Below are positions 41,979-54,546 of a DNA stretch of 64,000 bases, one piece after another. The DNA is from Bacilli bacterium (GTDB taxonomy: Bacteria; Bacillota_I; Bacilli_A; RF39; UBA660), in assembly GCA_017416535.1 (NCBI GenBank), contig JAFQCG010000001.1, positions 389,013 through 453,012 of the forward strand, given 5' to 3'. The stretch's first letter is position 1. Each line of letters opens with the position of its first letter. The notes beneath the pieces were generated by a model. The model made no database searches and was not told where the DNA came from. It was given only the letters and a program-made list of their open reading frames with translations. The translations under genes were made by a program, and so were the position numbers.

Positions 41979-42031
41979 ATTTAAATAAATAAAAAGTAGA
42001 GTAAAATGTGAAGTATAGCGGAGGTGAAAAG

Positions 42032-44182
42032 ATGGGGAGAAGTAAGAAGGAATTAAAGAAAATCATGATTATTAAGAGAAATGGTAATCTTGAAGAATTT
42101 GATCCTGAACGTGTTAAAGCAGCTTGTATCTCTAGTGCCGAAAGAGTTATGGTTGATTTAACAGATGTAGCTTTGGAGAAGATTGTAAAGTTAGTTCGTG
42201 AATTATTAGAAACGCAAACTACTAATCCAACAGTTGAGCAAGTACATAGTTGTTGTGAAGCTGCTCTTGAAAGAGTTAATCCATTAGTTGCTAAAAGTTA
42301 TCGTGAGTATAGAGACTATAAGAGGGAGATAGTTCATATACTTGATAAAGTTTATAAGAAGGCACAAGTTATTACATATATTGGTGATAAAGATTGTGCA
42401 AATATGGATAGTGCACTTGTTACAACACAAAGATGTTTAATTTATAATAGTTTAAATAAAGAGTTATATAAGAAATTCTTTTTAACAGCAGCAGAGATTG
42501 AAGCTTGTAAAGATGGCTATATTTATATTCATGATATGAGTTTTAGAAGAGATACAATGAATTGTTGTTTATTTGATATGGCTAATGTGTTAAAAGATGG
42601 TTTTGAAATGAGTAATATTTGGTATACGGAACCGAAAGGATTACAAACTGCATTTAATGTTATGGGGGATGTAATTATAAATACGACTGCTATGCAATAT
42701 GGTGGTTTTACTGTAGCTGAAGTTGATACTGTTTTAAAGAAATATGCAAAGTTATCTTATGATAAGTACTATGAAGAGTATTTAGAAATTAAAGGAAAAG
42801 AGTATATAGATGAGGCAAAAGAATATGCTTGGAAAAAAACTGTTCGTGAGTGTGAACAAGGATACCAAGGCATTGAATATAAATTAAATACTGTAAGTTC
42901 TAGTAGAGGAGATTATCCATTTGTAACATTTACTTTTGGTGTGGATGAAGATGAATTTGCAGTTATGATTACTAAGATTATGTTAGATGTACATAGAGAA
43001 GGTCAAGGAAAGAAAGGATTTAAGAAACCTACTTTATTTCCAAAACTTGTATTTTTATATGATAAGGATAAACATGGTGAAGGTAAAGTATTAAGAGATA
43101 GTTTTGTTACGGCTATTAAATGTAGTGAAAAGACAATGTATCCTGATTATTTGTCATTAAGTGGAGAAGGTTATGTTCCAGAAATGTATAAGAAATATGG
43201 AAGAATAGTTAGTCCAATGGGATGTAGAGCATTCTTAAGCCCTTGGTTTGAAAGAGGTGGAATGGAACCTTTCGATAAAGATGATAAACCTGTATTTATT
43301 GGAAGATTTAATATAGGAGCAATATCACTTCATTTACCAATGATTCTTGCTAAAGCAAGAGAAGAACAAAAAGATTTTTATGAAGTATTAGATTATTATT
43401 TACAAATGATTCGTAAGATTCATATTAGAACATATAAATATTTAGCTAAGAGAAAAGCTTCTACTAATCCGCTTGCTTATTGTCAAGGAGGATTTTATGG
43501 AGGAAATCTTAAACCAGAAGAATCAATTGAATCAGTTATGAAATCTTGTACTGCATCATATGGAATTACGGCATTAAATGAATTGCAAGTTTTATATAAT
43601 GGGAAGAGTATTGTCGAAGATGGAGAGTTTGCTTTAGAGGTTTTAAAATATATTAATGATAAGACTTTAGAATATAAGAAAGAAGATAATATTTTATATG
43701 CAATATATGGGACACCTGCTGAAAGTTTATGTGGCCTTCAAATAAAACAATTCAGAAAGAAATATGGTGTTATTGAAGGTGTAAGTTCTAGAGAATATGT
43801 TTCTAATAGTTTCCATTGTGGAGTATGGGAAGATATTACTGGAATTGAAAAACAAGATTTGGAAGAAAGATTCTGGGAACTTTGTAAAGGTGGAAGAATC
43901 CAATATGTTAGATATAATTTGAGTTATAATCGTAAAGCAATGCTTACATATATAGAAAGAGCTATGGAAAAAGGATTCTATGAAGGAGTTAATTTATCTT
44001 TGGCTTATTGTAATAACTGTGGTCATGAAGAGCTAGAAATGGATACTTGTCCAAAATGTGGTAGTAGTGATTTGACTAAGATTGATCGTATGAATGGATA
44101 TTTATCTTTCTCAAGAGTTCATGGAGATACTATGTTGGGTGCTGCTAAAATGAAGGAAATATCCGAAAGGAAATCTATGTAA
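42032..44182 (+). CDS. nrdD: anaerobic ribonucleoside-triphosphate reductase, first copy
   Basis: A 716-residue class III reductase. An N-terminal ATP-cone (MIIKRNGNLEEFDPERVKAA) is followed by the glycyl-radical barrel with TRIPLE-like HIRTYKYLAKRKASTNPL. A zinc-ribbon (CNNCG...CPKCG) and a C-terminal radical loop DRMNGYLSFSRVHG carry the Gly. It reduces NTPs to dNTPs without oxygen after activation by NrdG. GCGGAGGTG supports ATG 42032; the upstream GTG at 42008 is unlikely. NrdG follows at once. Its C terminus differs from the classical RVTGYL...RVKH form, which is found instead in the separate ORF at 47859. Confidence 0.93.
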   Translation: MGRSKKELKKIMIIKRNGNLEEFDPERVKAACISSAERVMVDLTDVALEKIVKLVRELLETQTTNPTVEQVHSCCEAALERVNPLVAKSYREYRDYKREIVHILDKVYKKAQVITYIGDKDCANMDSALVTTQRCLIYNSLNKELYKKFFLTAAEIEACKDGYIYIHDMSFRRDTMNCCLFDMANVLKDGFEMSNIWYTEPKGLQTAFNVMGDVIINTTAMQYGGFTVAEVDTVLKKYAKLSYDKYYEEYLEIKGKEYIDEAKEYAWKKTVRECEQGYQGIEYKLNTVSSSRGDYPFVTFTFGVDEDEFAVMITKIMLDVHREGQGKKGFKKPTLFPKLVFLYDKDKHGEGKVLRDSFVTAIKCSEKTMYPDYLSLSGEGYVPEMYKKYGRIVSPMGCRAFLSPWFERGGMEPFDKDDKPVFIGRFNIGAISLHLPMILAKAREEQKDFYEVLDYYLQMIRKIHIRTYKYLAKRKASTNPLAYCQGGFYGGNLKPEESIESVMKSCTASYGITALNELQVLYNGKSIVEDGEFALEVLKYINDKTLEYKKEDNILYAIYGTPAESLCGLQIKQFRKKYGVIEGVSSREYVSNSFHCGVWEDITGIEKQDLEERFWELCKGGRIQYVRYNLSYNRKAMLTYIERAMEKGFYEGVNLSLAYCNNCGHEELEMDTCPKCGSSDLTKIDRMNGYLSFSRVHGDTMLGAAKMKEISERKSM

Positions 44183-44725
44183 ATGAAATATCATAATATA
44201 ACAAAAGCAGATATGCTTAATGGGGAAGGACTAAGAGTTGTTCTTTGGACAAGTGGATGTAGTCATAATTGTCCTGGTTGTCATAATGCAATTACTTGGA
44301 ATAAAGATAATGGTCTTTTGTTTGATGATGCTGCTAAAGAGGAAATATTTTGTGAACTAGAGAAAGATTGGTGTAGTGGTCTTACTTTATCAGGAGGAGA
44401 TCCACTATTTCCTGAGAGTAGAGAGACTATTGCTGAATTAGTTAAAGAAGTAAAGGAAAAATATCCTAATAAAACTATTTGGTGTTATACGGGATTTATT
44501 TGGGAAGAATTAATTCCGCAAATGGAGAAAGATAAAAATTTAGAAACTATTATTAATAATATTGATGTTTTGTTAGATGGTAAGTTTGTTTTAAGACTTG
44601 CATTAGAAAAATTACAATATGTTGGTAGTAGTAATCAGAATATTATTGATGTTAAAAAGAGTTTAGAAAGTGATAAGAAAATATTATATATAGATAATAA
44701 TAAATGGTTAGAGGGAGAAGAATAA
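44183..44725 (+). CDS. nrdG: NrdG radical SAM activase, first copy
   Basis: A 180-residue anaerobic RNR activating enzyme. The iron-sulfur motif is SGCSHNCPGCHN (CxxxCxxC), with LTLSGGDPLF as the SAM-binding GGE-like motif and WCYTGFIWEEL. It uses SAM to place the radical on the Gly of NrdD. The ATG follows the nrdD stop with no gap, so translation is coupled. Its TAATG end overlaps the dUTPase start by one base. The order nrdD-nrdG-dut makes a nucleotide operon. Confidence 0.95.
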   Translation: MKYHNITKADMLNGEGLRVVLWTSGCSHNCPGCHNAITWNKDNGLLFDDAAKEEIFCELEKDWCSGLTLSGGDPLFPESRETIAELVKEVKEKYPNKTIWCYTGFIWEELIPQMEKDKNLETIINNIDVLLDGKFVLRLALEKLQYVGSSNQNIIDVKKSLESDKKILYIDNNKWLEGEE

Positions 44726-45186
44726 TGAAAACACGTGGATTTGAAATTGCTAAAGGATGGGAAGATAAGGGGATTAATTTACCTGTTAGAAAGACTGCAC
44801 GTTCTGCTGGATATGATGTAGAAGCTGCAGAAGATATAATTATACCTATGTTTACTCCAGGGTGTAAGCCAACACTTATTCCTACAGGATTAAAAGCGTA
44901 TTGTATGGATGATGAATGTTATTTACTATTAAATCGTAGTAGTGGACCTAAAAAAGGATTTATACTTGCAAATAGTGTAGGATTAATAGATGCAGACTAT
45001 TATGAAAATGAAAATAATGATGGACATTTTTACTTCGCATATTTTAATTGTAGTGACCATGATATTTATGTTAAAAAAGGTGATGTTATAGGGCAAGTTG
45101 TTTTCCAAAAATATTTGGTTGTAGACAACGATACTGCAACAGGAACTCGTACTGGTGGGTTCGGTTCGACAGATGATAAAAAATAG
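44725..45186 (+). CDS. dut: dUTP diphosphatase
   Basis: A 153-residue trimeric-type dUTPase. The five motifs are visible: SAGYDVEA (1), RSSGPKKG (2), GLIDADYYENEN (3, with the Tyr that rejects ribose), YVKKGDVIGQVVF (4) and TGTRTGGFGSTD (5). It cleaves dUTP to dUMP, limiting uracil in DNA and feeding dTMP synthesis. AGAGGGAGAAG supports ATG 44725, overlapping the nrdG stop; a longer reading from 44704 is inside nrdG. A dCTP deaminase is less likely given motif 3. Confidence 0.88.
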   Translation: MKTRGFEIAKGWEDKGINLPVRKTARSAGYDVEAAEDIIIPMFTPGCKPTLIPTGLKAYCMDDECYLLLNRSSGPKKGFILANSVGLIDADYYENENNDGHFYFAYFNCSDHDIYVKKGDVIGQVVFQKYLVVDNDTATGTRTGGFGSTDDKK

Positions 45187-45509: not shown

Positions 45510-47825
45510 ATGAATGAAGTAGTTGATAAGTTAGAAAACTTAACAGTAATTAAAAGAAATGGTAAAAAGGTTAGTTTTGATGAAACAAAAATAGCTTTAT
45601 CTATAAAAAAAGGGTTCGATAGTGTTGAAGTAGATGTTGATGATGATGATAAAGAAAGAAAGTACACTACTAAGGATGTACAAAAAGTTTATCAAGCAGT
45701 TCTAAAGAGACTTGAAAAAATTTCGAAAGAAACAGATAAAATTAAAATTGAAGAAATTCAAGATTTAATAGAAGAAGAATTATCTAAAAAAGGATATGAA
45801 GATGTTTATAAGTCATTTTCTGAATATAGAGAAAGAAGAAATCAATCTCGTCAATTATTCTTTGAAGATAAGAAAACACATAAGTTTTTAAAATCATTAG
45901 AAAACTTAGGTTTAAAATCAGCTAATGAAGAAGATGCTAAGAGAGAAAATGCAAATATCGATGGAAATAGTCCAATGGGAACAATGTTACAATATGGAGC
46001 TACAGTTTCTAAAGAATTTGCTAAAGCATATTTAATGAAACCAGAATATGCAACAATGCATGATAATGGAACAATTCATATTCATGATATGGACTTCCTA
46101 GCAATGGGAACTACAACTTGTTGTCAAATTAATCTTGAAAGATTATTCAAAAATGGATTTGATACAGGACATGGGTATGTAAGACCTCCACAAGATATTT
46201 CAACATATGGTTCACTTGCTGCTATTGTTGTTCAAGCAAACCAAAATGACCAACATGGTGGACAAGCTATTCCAGCACTTGATTATTATTTGGCTCCTGG
46301 GGTTTTAAAAACATTTAAGAAACAATTTAAACAAACAATTTATGATTTCTTAGATCTAGATGGATTTTTACCAGTAGTTAATGTAGATAGAATTATTCGT
46401 GAAATTGATAAATTAGAATCAATTGAAGTAAATGTAGAAGAATTTACAGATTATCAAAAGGGTTCAGAAAGAATTCAAGAAATTTTTGTTAAAGGATATG
46501 AAAAAGCTTTACAAAAGACAGATAGAGCAACACAACAAACTATGGAAGCATTTATTCATAACTTAAATACAATGCATTCAAGAGCTGGTGCTCAAGTACC
46601 ATTCTCATCAGTAAACTTTGGTACTGATACTTCTCCAGAAGGAAGAATGGTAATTAAGAACTTCTTACTTGCAACTGATAGAGGACTTGGAAATGGTGAA
46701 ACACCAATCTTCCCAGTATCAATCTTTAAGGTAAAAGAAGGAGTTAACTATAATAAAGAGGATAAAAACTATGATTTATTTAGATTAGCGTGTGAAGTTT
46801 CTGCTAAGAGACTTTTCCCTAACTTTGCATTTGTAGATGCTCCATTTAACTTAGCTTTCTATAAAGAAGGAGATGTTAATACAGAAGTATCTTACATGGG
46901 ATGTCGTACAAGAGTTGTTGCAGATGTTACTTCTCCGGATAATCAAGTAGTTACTGGAAGAGGAAACTTATCATTTACAACAATCAACTTACCAAGACTT
47001 GGAATTAAATATGGTATTGCTTTAGGTGAAAGAGATAAAGCAGATATGAAAGGATTCTATGAAGAACTTGGTGAAATAATGGATAAGGTTCGTGACCAAT
47101 TACTAGAGAGATTTGAAGTTCAATGTAATAAACGTTGTTATAACTTCCCATTCTTACTAGGACAAGGTGTATGGACTAATGGTGAAAAATTAAAACCAAC
47201 TGATAGATTAAGAAAAGTTTGGAAACATGGTTCATTATCAACTGGATTTATCGGATTAGCTGAATGTTTAAAAGCTTTAACTGGTAAACATCATGGAGAA
47301 GATCCTAAGAGTCAAAAATTAGGAATTGAAATTATTAAATTCATGAGAGACAGATGTGATGAAAATGCTAAGAAATATAACTTAAACTTTACATGTTTAG
47401 CTACACCAGCTGAAGGATTATCTGGTAGATTTACAAATATTGATAGAGCTATTTATGGAAAGATTAAGGGTGTTACAGATAGAGAATACTATACAAACTC
47501 ATTCCATGTACCTGTTTACTATAACATTAGTATTAGTGACAAGTTACATACTGAAGCACCATATCATGATTTCACAAATGGTGGACATATTTCTTATATC
47601 GAAGTTGATGGAGATGTTGCTGCTAACGTTGATGCTTTCGAAAGTATTATTAGAACAATGAAGGAAGCAGGAATTGGTTATGGAGCAGTTAACCATCCAG
47701 TAGATAGAGACCCAGTTTGTGGATATGTTGGAGTTATCAATGATGTATGTCCTGGATGTGGACGTAAAGAGTTTGAAGGAGTTCCAATGGAGAAAATTAC
47801 AGCACCTGAGTGTTGTGGTAGATAA
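45510..47825 (+). CDS. nrdD: anaerobic ribonucleoside-triphosphate reductase, second copy, core without radical domain
   Basis: A 771-residue class III reductase core. The ATP-cone (VIKRNGKKVSFDETKIALSI) is followed by the long barrel with MGTTTCCQINLERLF, IVVQANQNDQHGGQAIPALD, VPFSSVNFGTDTSPEGRM and SYMGCRTRV, then a zinc-ribbon region (CGYVGVINDVCPGCG). It stops after ITAPECCGR, so the Gly-radical RVTGYL segment is absent. That segment is the next ORF, in the same frame, after 33 bases. GTGAGGTAG supports ATG 45510; an upstream ATG at 45468 lacks a ribosome site. It is distant in sequence from the first copy. Confidence 0.93.
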   Translation: MNEVVDKLENLTVIKRNGKKVSFDETKIALSIKKGFDSVEVDVDDDDKERKYTTKDVQKVYQAVLKRLEKISKETDKIKIEEIQDLIEEELSKKGYEDVYKSFSEYRERRNQSRQLFFEDKKTHKFLKSLENLGLKSANEEDAKRENANIDGNSPMGTMLQYGATVSKEFAKAYLMKPEYATMHDNGTIHIHDMDFLAMGTTTCCQINLERLFKNGFDTGHGYVRPPQDISTYGSLAAIVVQANQNDQHGGQAIPALDYYLAPGVLKTFKKQFKQTIYDFLDLDGFLPVVNVDRIIREIDKLESIEVNVEEFTDYQKGSERIQEIFVKGYEKALQKTDRATQQTMEAFIHNLNTMHSRAGAQVPFSSVNFGTDTSPEGRMVIKNFLLATDRGLGNGETPIFPVSIFKVKEGVNYNKEDKNYDLFRLACEVSAKRLFPNFAFVDAPFNLAFYKEGDVNTEVSYMGCRTRVVADVTSPDNQVVTGRGNLSFTTINLPRLGIKYGIALGERDKADMKGFYEELGEIMDKVRDQLLERFEVQCNKRCYNFPFLLGQGVWTNGEKLKPTDRLRKVWKHGSLSTGFIGLAECLKALTGKHHGEDPKSQKLGIEIIKFMRDRCDENAKKYNLNFTCLATPAEGLSGRFTNIDRAIYGKIKGVTDREYYTNSFHVPVYYNISISDKLHTEAPYHDFTNGGHISYIEVDGDVAANVDAFESIIRTMKEAGIGYGAVNHPVDRDPVCGYVGVINDVCPGCGRKEFEGVPMEKITAPECCGR

Positions 47826-47858
47826 ATAAAAAAATATTAGAAAAGGGAGAAATAGTTT

Positions 47859-48023
47859 ATGGAAAAAGTAATGGGTGAAGGACAAGGGTTCGAAAGAATA
47901 AGAAGAGTTACAGGATATCTTGCAGGAGATGTATCAAGATTCAATAATGGTAAGAGAGCTGAAGAAAGAGATCGTGTAAAACATAGCGGACATAAAGATT
48001 TATTAAAGAAAAACGCTAAGTAA
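47859..48023 (+). CDS. separate glycyl-radical domain of the second NrdD
   Basis: A 54-residue ORF with AAAAGGGAG upstream. Its sequence is the classical NrdD C terminus: GFERIRRVTGYLAGDVSRFN, then NNGKRAEERDRVKH, with the radical-bearing Gly19 in RVTGYL. The core gene at 45510 lacks this part. The two ORFs are in the same frame, separated by TAA, then TAG, then the new ribosome site and ATG. Its TAATG end overlaps the nrdG start. It probably docks on the core as a separate subunit, similar in principle to GrcA/YfiD for pyruvate formate-lyase. Confidence 0.88.
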   Translation: MEKVMGEGQGFERIRRVTGYLAGDVSRFNNGKRAEERDRVKHSGHKDLLKKNAK

Positions 48024-48571
48024 TGAAAATTAGATTAGCTGCTGATTTACAGCCTGATTCTGTTGTAGATGGTGAGGGAATAAGAACTGTGTTATGGACA
48101 CAGGGATGCCCTCATGCCTGCAAAGGATGTCATAATCCTCAAACACACAGCTTCAAAGATGGGGTTGAAGTTGATGTTGAAGAAGTAATTGAAGCATTAA
48201 GTGAAATAAAACATCAAGATGGATTAACTTTATCGGGAGGAGATCCTGTATGTCAGAGCGAAGCTTGTTATGAGATAAGTAAAGCTGCACATGAAATGGG
48301 ACTAAACGTTTGGTGTTATACAGGTTTTACTTATGAAACAATGCTTCAAAATCCAAAGCATAGAAAACTTTTAGAAGAAATTGATGTCTTAGTAGATGGA
48401 AAATTTATTCTAGAAGAAAAAAGCTATGATTTACATTTTAGAGGTTCTCGTAATCAAAGAATTATTGATGTTCAAAGAAGTTTAAAAGAAGAAAAGGTTG
48501 TGTTAGTTGAGAAGTATGCCGAAGATAAAAAGATTTCTAGCTATGAAAAACCAAGTTATATGTTTATTTAA
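48023..48571 (+). CDS. nrdG: NrdG radical SAM activase, second copy
   Basis: A 182-residue activase. It has DGEGIRTVLWTQGCPHACKG, completing CxxxCxxC in GCPHACKGCHN, then LTLSGGDPV and WCYTGFTYETM. It generates the radical on the Gly now carried by the small ORF just upstream, with which its start overlaps by one base. It differs clearly from the first NrdG (44183), so each reductase has its own activase rather than a recent duplicate. A terminator overlaps its stop. Confidence 0.95.
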   Translation: MKIRLAADLQPDSVVDGEGIRTVLWTQGCPHACKGCHNPQTHSFKDGVEVDVEEVIEALSEIKHQDGLTLSGGDPVCQSEACYEISKAAHEMGLNVWCYTGFTYETMLQNPKHRKLLEEIDVLVDGKFILEEKSYDLHFRGSRNQRIIDVQRSLKEEKVVLVEKYAEDKKISSYEKPSYMFI

Positions 48572-48594
48572 GAAGTCTTAGGGCTTCTTTTTTT
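48570..48594 (+). terminator. terminator after the second RNR operon
   Basis: AAGAAGTC / GGCTTCTT stem with a TTAG loop, then T-run. Confidence 0.85.
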
Positions 48595-52408: not shown

Positions 52409-53044
52409 ATGGATAACTTATTAGAATACGAGAATTTAGTTTTTAGTATTATAAGTAAGTATGGTAATTATTTTGATAAAGATGATTTGTATCAAGTTGG
52501 TATGATAGGCTTGATTGATGCTTATAAACATTTTGATGAAAGTGTTGGAGTTAAGTTTTCAAGTTATGCTTATTATTATATTCTTGGAGAAGTTACTAAA
52601 TTTGTTAGAGAAAATAGAAGTGTTAAAGTAAGTAAAGATGTTATTAAACTTAATAGTTCTATTGAAAAGTGTAGAGATATAATGAGACAAAAGTTGGGGA
52701 GAGAACCAACTGATACTGAAGTTTCTTTATTTTTAGAAATTGATGAAGAAAAAGTTAGTGAAGTTAGAAATTCTATGCAGGAAGTAAAAAGTTTAGATTT
52801 TTGTTATGAAGAAGATATTTCATTATACAATTCAGTAATGTGTTTTGATAATGGAACAAGTGCAGATGTTTTAGACTTAAAAGATGAAATAAGTAGATTA
52901 AATGAAGAAGAAAAAGCAATAATTGATGCAAGATACTATCAAGAAATGACACAAAGTGAAGCAAGTAAAAAACTTGGAATTAGTCAGGTACAAGTTTCGA
53001 GAAAAGAAGGAAAAATATTAGAAAAATTAAGATGTAGATTATAA
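52409..53044 (+). CDS. sigF: sporulation sigma factor, SigF/SigG type
   Basis: A 211-residue sigma-70 family protein. Region 2 (DLYQVGMIGLIDAYKHFDES to YYYILGEVTKFVRENRSVKVS), region 3 (LGREPTDTEVSLFLEID) and region 4 (MTQSEASKKLGISQVQVSRK) are complete. Compared with Bacillus SigF (about 255 residues) the N terminus is about 35-40 residues shorter, lacking most of region 1.2. Position after a STAS gene and before spoVA identifies it as the sigF slot. AAGGAGG lies only three bases before the ATG, a short spacing that may limit translation. Confidence 0.87.
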   Translation: MDNLLEYENLVFSIISKYGNYFDKDDLYQVGMIGLIDAYKHFDESVGVKFSSYAYYYILGEVTKFVRENRSVKVSKDVIKLNSSIEKCRDIMRQKLGREPTDTEVSLFLEIDEEKVSEVRNSMQEVKSLDFCYEEDISLYNSVMCFDNGTSADVLDLKDEISRLNEEEKAIIDARYYQEMTQSEASKKLGISQVQVSRKEGKILEKLRCRL

Positions 53045-53069
53045 CTTAAGATTTTTCTTAAGTTTTTTT
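53043..53069 (+). terminator. terminator between sigF and spoVA
   Basis: AACTTAAG / CTTAAGTT stem with a six-base loop, then T-run. Confidence 0.85.
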
Positions 53070-53098
53070 GTATATAAAGAATTTATTTATTCATACTA
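53070..53098 (+). promoter_or_regulatory. sigma-G-like promoter of spoVACDE
   Basis: GTATA (53070-53074), a 17-base spacer, then CATACTA (53092-53098). The -10 fits the sigma-G consensus CATnmTA exactly and the -35 differs by one base from GmATR. The spoVA genes are sigma-G targets in Bacillus. The implied leader before ATG 53114 is short, about 10 bases. Confidence 0.6.
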
Positions 53099-53113
53099 CT
53101 AATGGTGATTAAA

Positions 53114-53557
53114 ATGAAAAATGTTAAATATGATAGAACTGCTGATTTATATAAGGCTGATGAACATCGAGTTAGGAATTTCTTTTTAGCTTTTTTAGTT
53201 GGAGGACTTATTGGTTTTCTTGGAGAATTAATTATTGAAATATTAATTAATGAATTTCATATTTCTAGGAGTGATGCTTCTACATTTATGATTATGTTTT
53301 TTATTGTTTTTGCTAGTTTATGTACAGCACTTGGATTTTTTGATAAATGGGTTACTAAATTTAAATGTGGTTTATTGATTCCTATTACAGGTTTTGCGCA
53401 TTCTATGACAAGTGCGGCAATGGATTATAAAAATGAAGGACCTATTTATGGGATTGGTTCAAATATATTTAAATTAGCAGGTTCGGTTATTTTATATGGG
53501 GTTGTATCGGCGTGGATTTTTGGAATGATTAGATATTTAATTGGGGTGATTTCATGA
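53114..53557 (+). CDS. spoVAC: stage V sporulation protein AC
   Basis: A 147-residue inner-spore-membrane protein with four helices and the family signature GLLIPITGFAHSMTSAAMDY. SpoVAC forms a mechanosensitive channel for dipicolinic acid uptake into and release from the spore core. GGTGAT supports ATG 53114; the upstream ATG at 53102 is an alternative. Its TGA overlaps the spoVAD ATG by four bases. Confidence 0.95.
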   Translation: MKNVKYDRTADLYKADEHRVRNFFLAFLVGGLIGFLGELIIEILINEFHISRSDASTFMIMFFIVFASLCTALGFFDKWVTKFKCGLLIPITGFAHSMTSAAMDYKNEGPIYGIGSNIFKLAGSVILYGVVSAWIFGMIRYLIGVIS

Positions 53558-54546
53558 CTTTTAATTATAAGAATGTTTATATTAAAGATACATCTACTAT
53601 TGCTGGACCATATGAAAAAGATGGCCCATTAAAGAAGTATTTTGATAAAACGTATAGTGATTTATATTTTGGTGAAAAATCTTTTGAAAAGGCTGAAGTA
53701 AAGTTAGTAAAAGATGCATTAGTTATGCTGATGAAAAAGACAGCTTTAACTAAAAAAGATATTGAATTAACTATTGGTGGAGATTTGCTTAATCAAATAA
53801 CTGCATCTACGTATGGTACATATAGTGTAGGAAATGCTTTTGTAGGGATTTATGGGGCTTGTAGTACGAGTGTTTTAGGAATGATAATAGGAAGTAATTT
53901 TATTGATGATGGTAGATGTAATAATGCTTGTGTTGTTGTATCTAGTCATAATTTAAGTAGTGAAAAACAATTTAGGAATCCTATTGAATATGGAGCTCCT
54001 CGTCCATCAAGTGCGACTTTTACAGCTACAGGTGCGGCTGCTTGTTTACTTACTAATGAAAAGACAAATGTAAAAGTTGATTGTGCTACTTTAGGAAAGA
54101 TTGTTGATTATAATCAGAATGATGTTAATGATATGGGGAGAGTAATGGCTCCGGCAGTAGTTGAGACGTTACTTACACATTTTGAAGAAACTGGTAGAAG
54201 TGTAGATGATTATGATCTTATTTTAACTGGGGATTTAGGTGTTTATGGGAAAGCAATTTTACAGGATTATATGTTTAATGTACATGATGTTGATTTATCT
54301 AATAATTATAATGATTGTGGAGTTATGCTTTATGATTTAGAAAAACAAGAAGAAGTAAATGCCGGTGGCTCTGGTCCTGTTTGTAGTGCGTTAGTTAATT
54401 TTTCTTATGTATATGATCAATTAAAAAAGAAGAAATTAAAAAGAGTTCTTCTTATTGCGACAGGGGCTTTATTTTCACCAACAATGGTATATCAAAAAGA
54501 AAATATTAATTCAATTGCTCATGCGATTAGTTTGGAGGCGGTTTAA
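53554..54546 (+). CDS. spoVAD: stage V sporulation protein AD
   Basis: A 330-residue soluble protein of the thiolase-like fold. It shows GNAFVGIYGACSTSVLGM, VVVSSHNLSSEKQFRNPIEYG, LTGDLGVYGKAILQDYM and DCGVMLYDLE. SpoVAD binds dipicolinic acid at the membrane and works with SpoVAC and SpoVAE. GGGGTGAT precedes the ATG. Overlaps on both sides show a tight operon. Confidence 0.97.
   Translation: MTFNYKNVYIKDTSTIAGPYEKDGPLKKYFDKTYSDLYFGEKSFEKAEVKLVKDALVMLMKKTALTKKDIELTIGGDLLNQITASTYGTYSVGNAFVGIYGACSTSVLGMIIGSNFIDDGRCNNACVVVSSHNLSSEKQFRNPIEYGAPRPSSATFTATGAAACLLTNEKTNVKVDCATLGKIVDYNQNDVNDMGRVMAPAVVETLLTHFEETGRSVDDYDLILTGDLGVYGKAILQDYMFNVHDVDLSNNYNDCGVMLYDLEKQEEVNAGGSGPVCSALVNFSYVYDQLKKKKLKRVLLIATGALFSPTMVYQKENINSIAHAISLEAV

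Follow-up and report, generated by a model that had tools for sequence, protein, structure and literature searches.

A class III ribonucleotide reductase predicted to carry its glycyl radical on a separate 54-residue peptide in uncultured Bacilli

Analysis of a 64,000-nucleotide stretch of DNA from a Bacilli bacterium (hereafter the window) revealed a class III ribonucleotide reductase (RNR) that most probably consists of two polypeptides, a catalytic NrdD core and a small peptide whose glycyl radical acts in trans. In textbook class III RNRs the radical is carried on the enzyme's own C-terminus. The probability of the two-polypeptide reading is put at about 0.88, in the absence of expression, proteomic or biochemical data. 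A two-subunit NrdD had been suggested in an earlier note on this DNA, and is now strongly supported by separate translation signals, by conservation and by its being the sole detected RNR in nine genomes, as well as by independent splits and by genes for the glycyl-radical domain (GRD) that are unlinked from, or located 5' of, cores in other genomes and phages. In the proposed mechanism the 771-aa core would supply the ATP-cone, allosteric sites, barrel, zinc ribbon and catalytic cysteines, and the separately translated 54-aa peptide would provide the glycyl-radical loop. NrdG, encoded in the same operon, would abstract a hydrogen from Gly19 of the peptide, which is inferred to dock in the barrel at the position usual for a cis GRD and to pass the radical in trans to Cys465, starting nucleotide reduction. 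More speculatively, a peptide cleaved by oxygen could be replaced and the 87-kDa core kept. The coordinates of all parts are listed in Table 1.

Table 1. Features of the split nrdD locus, in window coordinates
Feature	Position	Strand	Basis
NrdD catalytic core without radical glycine, 771 aa	45510..47825	+	PF13597 1-533/562, ATP-cone, NF005497
Alternative core start, ATG, giving a 785-aa frame	45468	+	ORF list
ATP-cone, allosteric activity domain	45543..45842	+	PF03477 E 5.6e-15, residues 26-125 of 785-aa frame
Core Cys204	46119..46121	+	alignments; matches first Cys of T4 NrdD active-site TNCC
Core Cys465, in MGCR, putative thiyl-radical cysteine	46902..46904	+	aligns with T4 Cys290 / PcNrdD Cys416
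Zinc-ribbon cysteines C737, C747, C750	47718..47759	+	invariant in alignment A4
Core tail KEFEGVPMEKITAPECCGR: degenerate start of lost cis radical domain and Cys-rich end	47766..47822	+	register comparison
Core stop TAA	47823-47825	+	sequence
Core-peptide gap, 33 nt	47826..47858	+	sequence
Shine-Dalgarno-like AGGGAG inside gap	47844-47849	+	sequence; comparable signals in relatives
Glycyl-radical peptide (GRD subunit), 54 aa, ATG start	47859..48023	+	PF13597 532-562; PcNrdD 707-741
Peptide Gly19 in RVTGYL, predicted glycyl-radical site	47913..47915	+	aligns with PcNrdD RITGYL
nrdG, radical-SAM activase	48023..48571	+	TIGR02491 161.7 bits, above cut-off
Terminator-like hairpin closing the core-peptide-nrdG unit	48570..48589	+	hairpin scan

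The PF13597 profile (562 positions) divides cleanly between the two products, with positions 1-533 on the core (E 1.9e-183) and 532-562 on the peptide (E 1.1e-7). In an alignment with Prevotella copri NrdD (PcNrdD, PDB 8p23), the core corresponds to residues 8-708 and the peptide to residues 707-741, and the core matches NF005497 at 982.8 bits, above the cut-off. The earlier note had described a core ending after its zinc ribbon without RVTGYL, a radical-domain ORF with its own ribosome site 33 bases further on, and nrdG overlapping the end of that ORF; these observations are borne out by the profile boundaries, by the AGGGAG in the gap and by base 48023, shared between the nrdG start and the last base of the peptide stop codon. 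The core start at 45510 was favoured since the alignments of most relatives begin at about residue 13-15 of the 785-aa frame. Among the features of class III enzymes, an NRDD catalytic domain with an ATP-cone (PF13597, PF03477, NF005497), the cognate activase NrdG (TIGR02491) and a formate-type active site (T4 Cys79, Cys290 and Asn311) are present, but the radical glycine, expected at the C-terminal end of the same chain, is located in the separate ORF. C204, C465, N486 and the zinc-ribbon cysteines are invariant in alignment A4, which comprises 51 rows down to 28% identity, as is the radical glycine, numbered G802 there. The two active-site cysteines were aligned to T4; the roles of C204, C465 and N486, including the equivalence of N486 to T4 Asn311, are presumed from established knowledge. 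Where T4 NrdD has the first of its four zinc cysteines, this lineage has an aspartate (DRDPVCGY, window 47700-47760), in fused and split forms alike. The PFL-type Gly_radical profile (PF01228) did not match the peptide, for which PF13597 was the only Pfam match; the single PF01228 match in the window genome is a fused pyruvate formate-lyase (PFL).

Between core and peptide, the + strand has no terminator-like hairpin. The repeat search, promoter scan and Rfam search of the window revealed nothing further beyond the terminator after nrdG and two tRNAs, and no Rfam intron was found in the window. Genes for a sigma factor, SpoVAC and SpoVAD at 52409-54546 are sporulation genes in this uncultured Bacilli MAG of 1.5 Mb.

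Related loci were gathered from species genomes, mostly MAGs in the case of bacteria, and 96 of the 97 examined could be scored, one being at a contig edge. The GRD is encoded by a separate ORF in 85 of the 96 loci and fused in 11. The stop, ribosome site and ATG arrangement that the earlier note proposed to seek in relatives is therefore present in most of them, and neither circumstance named there as a refutation applies: the relatives are not all fused, and stop codons that are sequence errors or strain-specific are contradicted by the recurrence of the arrangement. In the window's family, a hand count gave 31 genomes with the peptide in its own short frame and 8 with a fused form. The gap between core and peptide in the split loci is 1-51 nt (median 17, n=85). 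A Shine-Dalgarno-like sequence was found for all 85 peptide starts, with the usual spacing for nearly all; in this count, one start was called at the first Met just 5' of the likely one. The radical domain of the peptide has a pN/pS of 0.17 over 25 close relatives, from which purifying selection on the peptide is inferred. A tree of 99 cores accounts for the split label with 2 changes, where shuffled labels would be expected to need 13 (0 of 500 shuffles were as low), and fused forms are basal. Judged from sequence, the split NrdD is conserved in a large set of gut bacteria that have not been cultured, and many phages have a split form as well. One fused pair (L009, L121) is nested within the split clade, and may be either a re-fusion of core and radical peptide or a second split.

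Full-length NrdD could still be made if ribosomes read through the stop codons, shifted frame or bypassed the gap, and both window ORFs are indeed in the same frame. This shared frame, pointed out in the earlier note, holds for the window but not as a general trait, for the peptide is in frame 0, 1 or 2 relative to the core in 29, 26 and 30 of the 85 loci, respectively. Readthrough is ruled out as a general mechanism because of this equal use of frames, the variable gaps and the Shine-Dalgarno-like sequences. In the window itself core and peptide are separated by three in-frame stops (TAA 47823, TAG 47838, TAG 47853), and elsewhere the GRD precedes the core, is encoded on the other strand or lies at a distance of 1.38 Mb. 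Readthrough or bypass was rejected on frames, stops and gene order, and retains almost no credibility.

Two class III RNR operons follow one another in the window, and no class I or II RNR was found in the genome. Directly 5' of the split locus lies a second, conventional fused nrdD (42008-44182), whose 724-aa product ends in GYLSFSRVHG...; an nrdG of its own and a dUTPase gene accompany it (42008-45186). A search for the class I/II large subunit (PF02867) gave no match in the window genome or in 13 split relatives; the control search was positive in 11 of 14 control genomes. Nine of the 13 split relatives (G005, G008, G010, G014, G021, G024, G026, G027 and G032) have a single NrdD, in the split form. 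Since it is the sole RNR detected in these nine, the split enzyme would have to work there, unless another RNR has been lost through incompleteness or the organisms live on salvage; the relatives bearing this argument are MAGs 88-96% complete. Essentiality rests on these other relatives because the window genome and the independently split genome G059, described below, each have a second, fused NrdD.

The draft state of the window MAG and the intact fused NrdD upstream might suggest that the split results from faulty sequencing or assembly, or that the locus is a pseudogene in decay. Chance or assembly error is discounted because 85 of the 96 scorable loci, from many assemblies, share the arrangement, and decay is at odds with the pN/pS of the peptide and with the nine relatives in which no RNR other than the split NrdD was detected. 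On these three grounds (recurrence, selection and sole detected RNR) error and pseudogene were rejected as scarcely tenable.

The origin of the split can be read from the core tail. In fused relatives the residues after the zinc-ribbon CGR read xExDGVxFERIRRITGYL. The tails of all 85 split cores have, after CGR, a degenerate DGVxFERI in the ancestral register with V at offset 5 (for example CGR-KEGEGVPMERIKN...), and about 0.2% of shuffled tails reach the score of the real motif. The peptide has its own complete copy of the radical domain, preceded by the same linker, GEGVKFERIRRITGYL; a GEG (or GKG) motif lies 5' of FERIRR in 81 of 85 peptides, and GEGVPMERI of the core tail compares with GEGVKFERI of the peptide. 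The duplicated motif was exposed by a mixed alignment (A1) that placed peptide rows on the core tail, which was wrong for folding. Because the core keeps the GRD start in register while the peptide has a complete copy, it is inferred that the radical-domain segment was probably duplicated, the second copy gaining its own start and the cis copy being truncated. In 80 of 85 split core tails there are one or more cysteines near the new C-terminus (CCGR, NCCE, CGC, CGGR), absent there in fused relatives; their role is unknown, a redox shuttle, a metal site or docking being candidates.

An alternative origin is a mobile element (intron, intein or homing endonuclease) whose split was tolerated rather than selected, as nrdD is often broken in this way in phages (PMC3653736, PMC12363816). 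No such element lies between the window core and peptide, where the gap offers only 33 nt (1-51 nt in relatives). The retained GRD start together with a complete peptide copy points to duplication and truncation instead, and unrelated lineages share the same breakpoint. An origin from a mobile element is therefore improbable, although less firmly dismissed than readthrough or error.

Splitting is not confined to the window's relatives. In G059, a one-contig complete genome, an NrdD core ends at profile position 538, as GLERIPRINLESE and a stop, at the nrdG start, and the only matching free GRD is a 92-aa protein encoded 1.38 Mb away; its second, fused NrdD is of another type. GRD-less phage cores have a GRD ORF just 3' (L249, L260, L267, L269, L275, L276, L297 and others), 2 kb 3' (L273 contig) or 5' (L285). 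On the L300 contig (IMGVR_UViG_3300031998_000115) NrdD is in three pieces, covering profile positions 1-157, 158-531 and the GRD, the last about 4 kb off on the opposite strand. On a tree of 84 cores the split/fused state changes about 10 times, a count that allows for phage row L360 having an E. coli-type CGYL domain and so not being split, and the breakpoint is the same in unrelated lineages; L274 and L282 were scored as split with no GRD found nearby, and their state is less sure. Given the independent cases in G059 and phages and these changes, splitting of NrdD is inferred to be recurrent and to have evolved independently several times. In Eggerthella phage EL753P1 (OP172808; L214 6964-7169), NrdD has an intein-like insert and no GRD, and the downstream GRD ORF is apparently broken by 5 extra bases within RRI/TGYL. 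A genome that is 96% complete (G112) has a free GRD gene (C8:3796-4038), with no NrdD core found.

A GRD ORF, short or long, without an NrdD core was found on nineteen IMG/VR contigs. Their neighbours include RusA-like, terminase-small-like and resolvase genes, and one core-less GRD (L039) lies inside a prophage-like region. Over 33 residues, several phage GRDs match peptides of split hosts without a single difference. The phage contigs with a free-standing NrdD radical domain and no NrdD (L163-L181) make it a candidate auxiliary metabolic or host-takeover gene.

For structure prediction with AF2, the in-frame read-through chain of the window served as a tethered model, with stops read as Gly and an artificial linker. 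With 51 diverse aligned rows the model reached a pLDDT of 85.1 and a pTM of 0.79, the peptide part being at about 45-73 pLDDT; with 23 close relatives only, it was useless (pLDDT 53, pTM 0.40). Its best PDB fold match is 8p23 chain B (825 columns, rmsd 8.9 Å), from the structure with ATP and CTP, where the GRD is ordered in one monomer (PMC11226230). The model agrees with the peptide docking at the usual GRD place but is no proof of it, provides no Gly-Cys distance, and rests on an alignment whose fused homologues favour the cis geometry. For the glycyl radical to be installed, the GRD must swing out towards NrdG and then return (PMC12662201), a movement that a detached GRD would make natural.

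The window enzyme resembles the class III NrdDs of P. copri (8p23), T4 and Streptococcus thermophilus (9d3x) in its ATP-cone, barrel, catalytic cysteines, zinc ribbon and GRD sequence, and in having nrdG in the operon. Those enzymes, however, have the GRD as the C-terminal part of the catalytic chain (PMC11226230, PMC9531940), whereas here it is a separate protein. The class II NrdJab of Pseudomonas aeruginosa likewise distributes an RNR catalytic polypeptide over two adjacent ORFs (PMC4520616), 16 bp apart (PMC4009431), but it is adenosylcobalamin-dependent and the divided part is not the radical-bearing domain. Phage nrdD and nrdA genes broken by introns, inteins and homing endonucleases (PMC3653736, PMC2988022; Jug phages, PMC12363816) also yield an RNR in pieces, but these breaks are due to mobile elements, are often restored by splicing, and include no conserved radical-domain subunit. 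In one nrdD in four fragments no mRNA splicing was seen between the 230-aa and 91-aa fragments (PMC12363816), and the latter might be a separate GRD of the same sort. Open-access papers on RNR families and split RNRs contained no mention of an NrdD with a separate radical domain, which does not prove that it is unreported.

A further parallel is the spare part. GrcA/YfiD and T4 Y06I (PMC8683613) are, like the window peptide, small free-standing glycyl-radical-domain proteins serving a large glycyl-radical enzyme; they are homologous to the PFL radical domain, whereas the peptide is of the NrdD type, and the partner of GrcA/YfiD has its own cis radical domain, which the window core lacks. PFL is the sole validated user of spare-part proteins, although other glycyl-radical enzymes may have them (PMC8683613). 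Many other Bacilli (L051/L184, about 20 related loci) have a fused NrdD and an unlinked free GRD protein of ~92 aa, composed of an uncharacterised N-terminal domain of ~55 aa, with a weak ThiS-like match, and a complete NrdD-type GRD. This arrangement resembles that of PFL with GrcA, and the ~92-aa protein is a candidate NrdD spare part.

The window peptide too could be mainly a renewable module for an oxygen-damaged enzyme, given these free GRDs beside intact fused NrdDs and the core-less phage GRDs, which recall the Y06I that phage T4 carries for PFL (PMC8683613). A replaceable module is a plausible reading of those bacterial and phage GRDs, although exchange and oxygen repair are untested. 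As the main role of the window peptide it is possible but rather unlikely: split-clade cores have no cis GRD, so that an undamaged enzyme depends on the peptide as well. In the window's organism, where the core lacks a radical glycine, the peptide would be an obligatory component and no spare part. Oxygen repair may be an added benefit of the two-subunit enzyme rather than a rival to it.

A separate radical carrier would overturn the rule placing the radical at the C-terminal end of the catalytic chain itself. With a 54-residue radical subunit, radical installation, docking, stoichiometry and turnover become separable and directly testable, and the split NrdD offers a minimal system from which renewable glycyl-radical enzymes could be engineered. 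PMC8683613 asks whether spare-part radical domains exist beyond PFL, and free NrdD radical domains are candidates provided by nature. It is conceivable, with the balance still slightly against it, that they form an exchangeable radical-subunit system, serving bacteria as an obligatory or spare subunit and phages as a means to supply, renew or redirect the host anaerobic RNR. If this is true, radical storage is separated from the catalytic chain and free to pass from one genome to another, and phage-borne radical subunits would be a new route to influence host DNA precursor synthesis.
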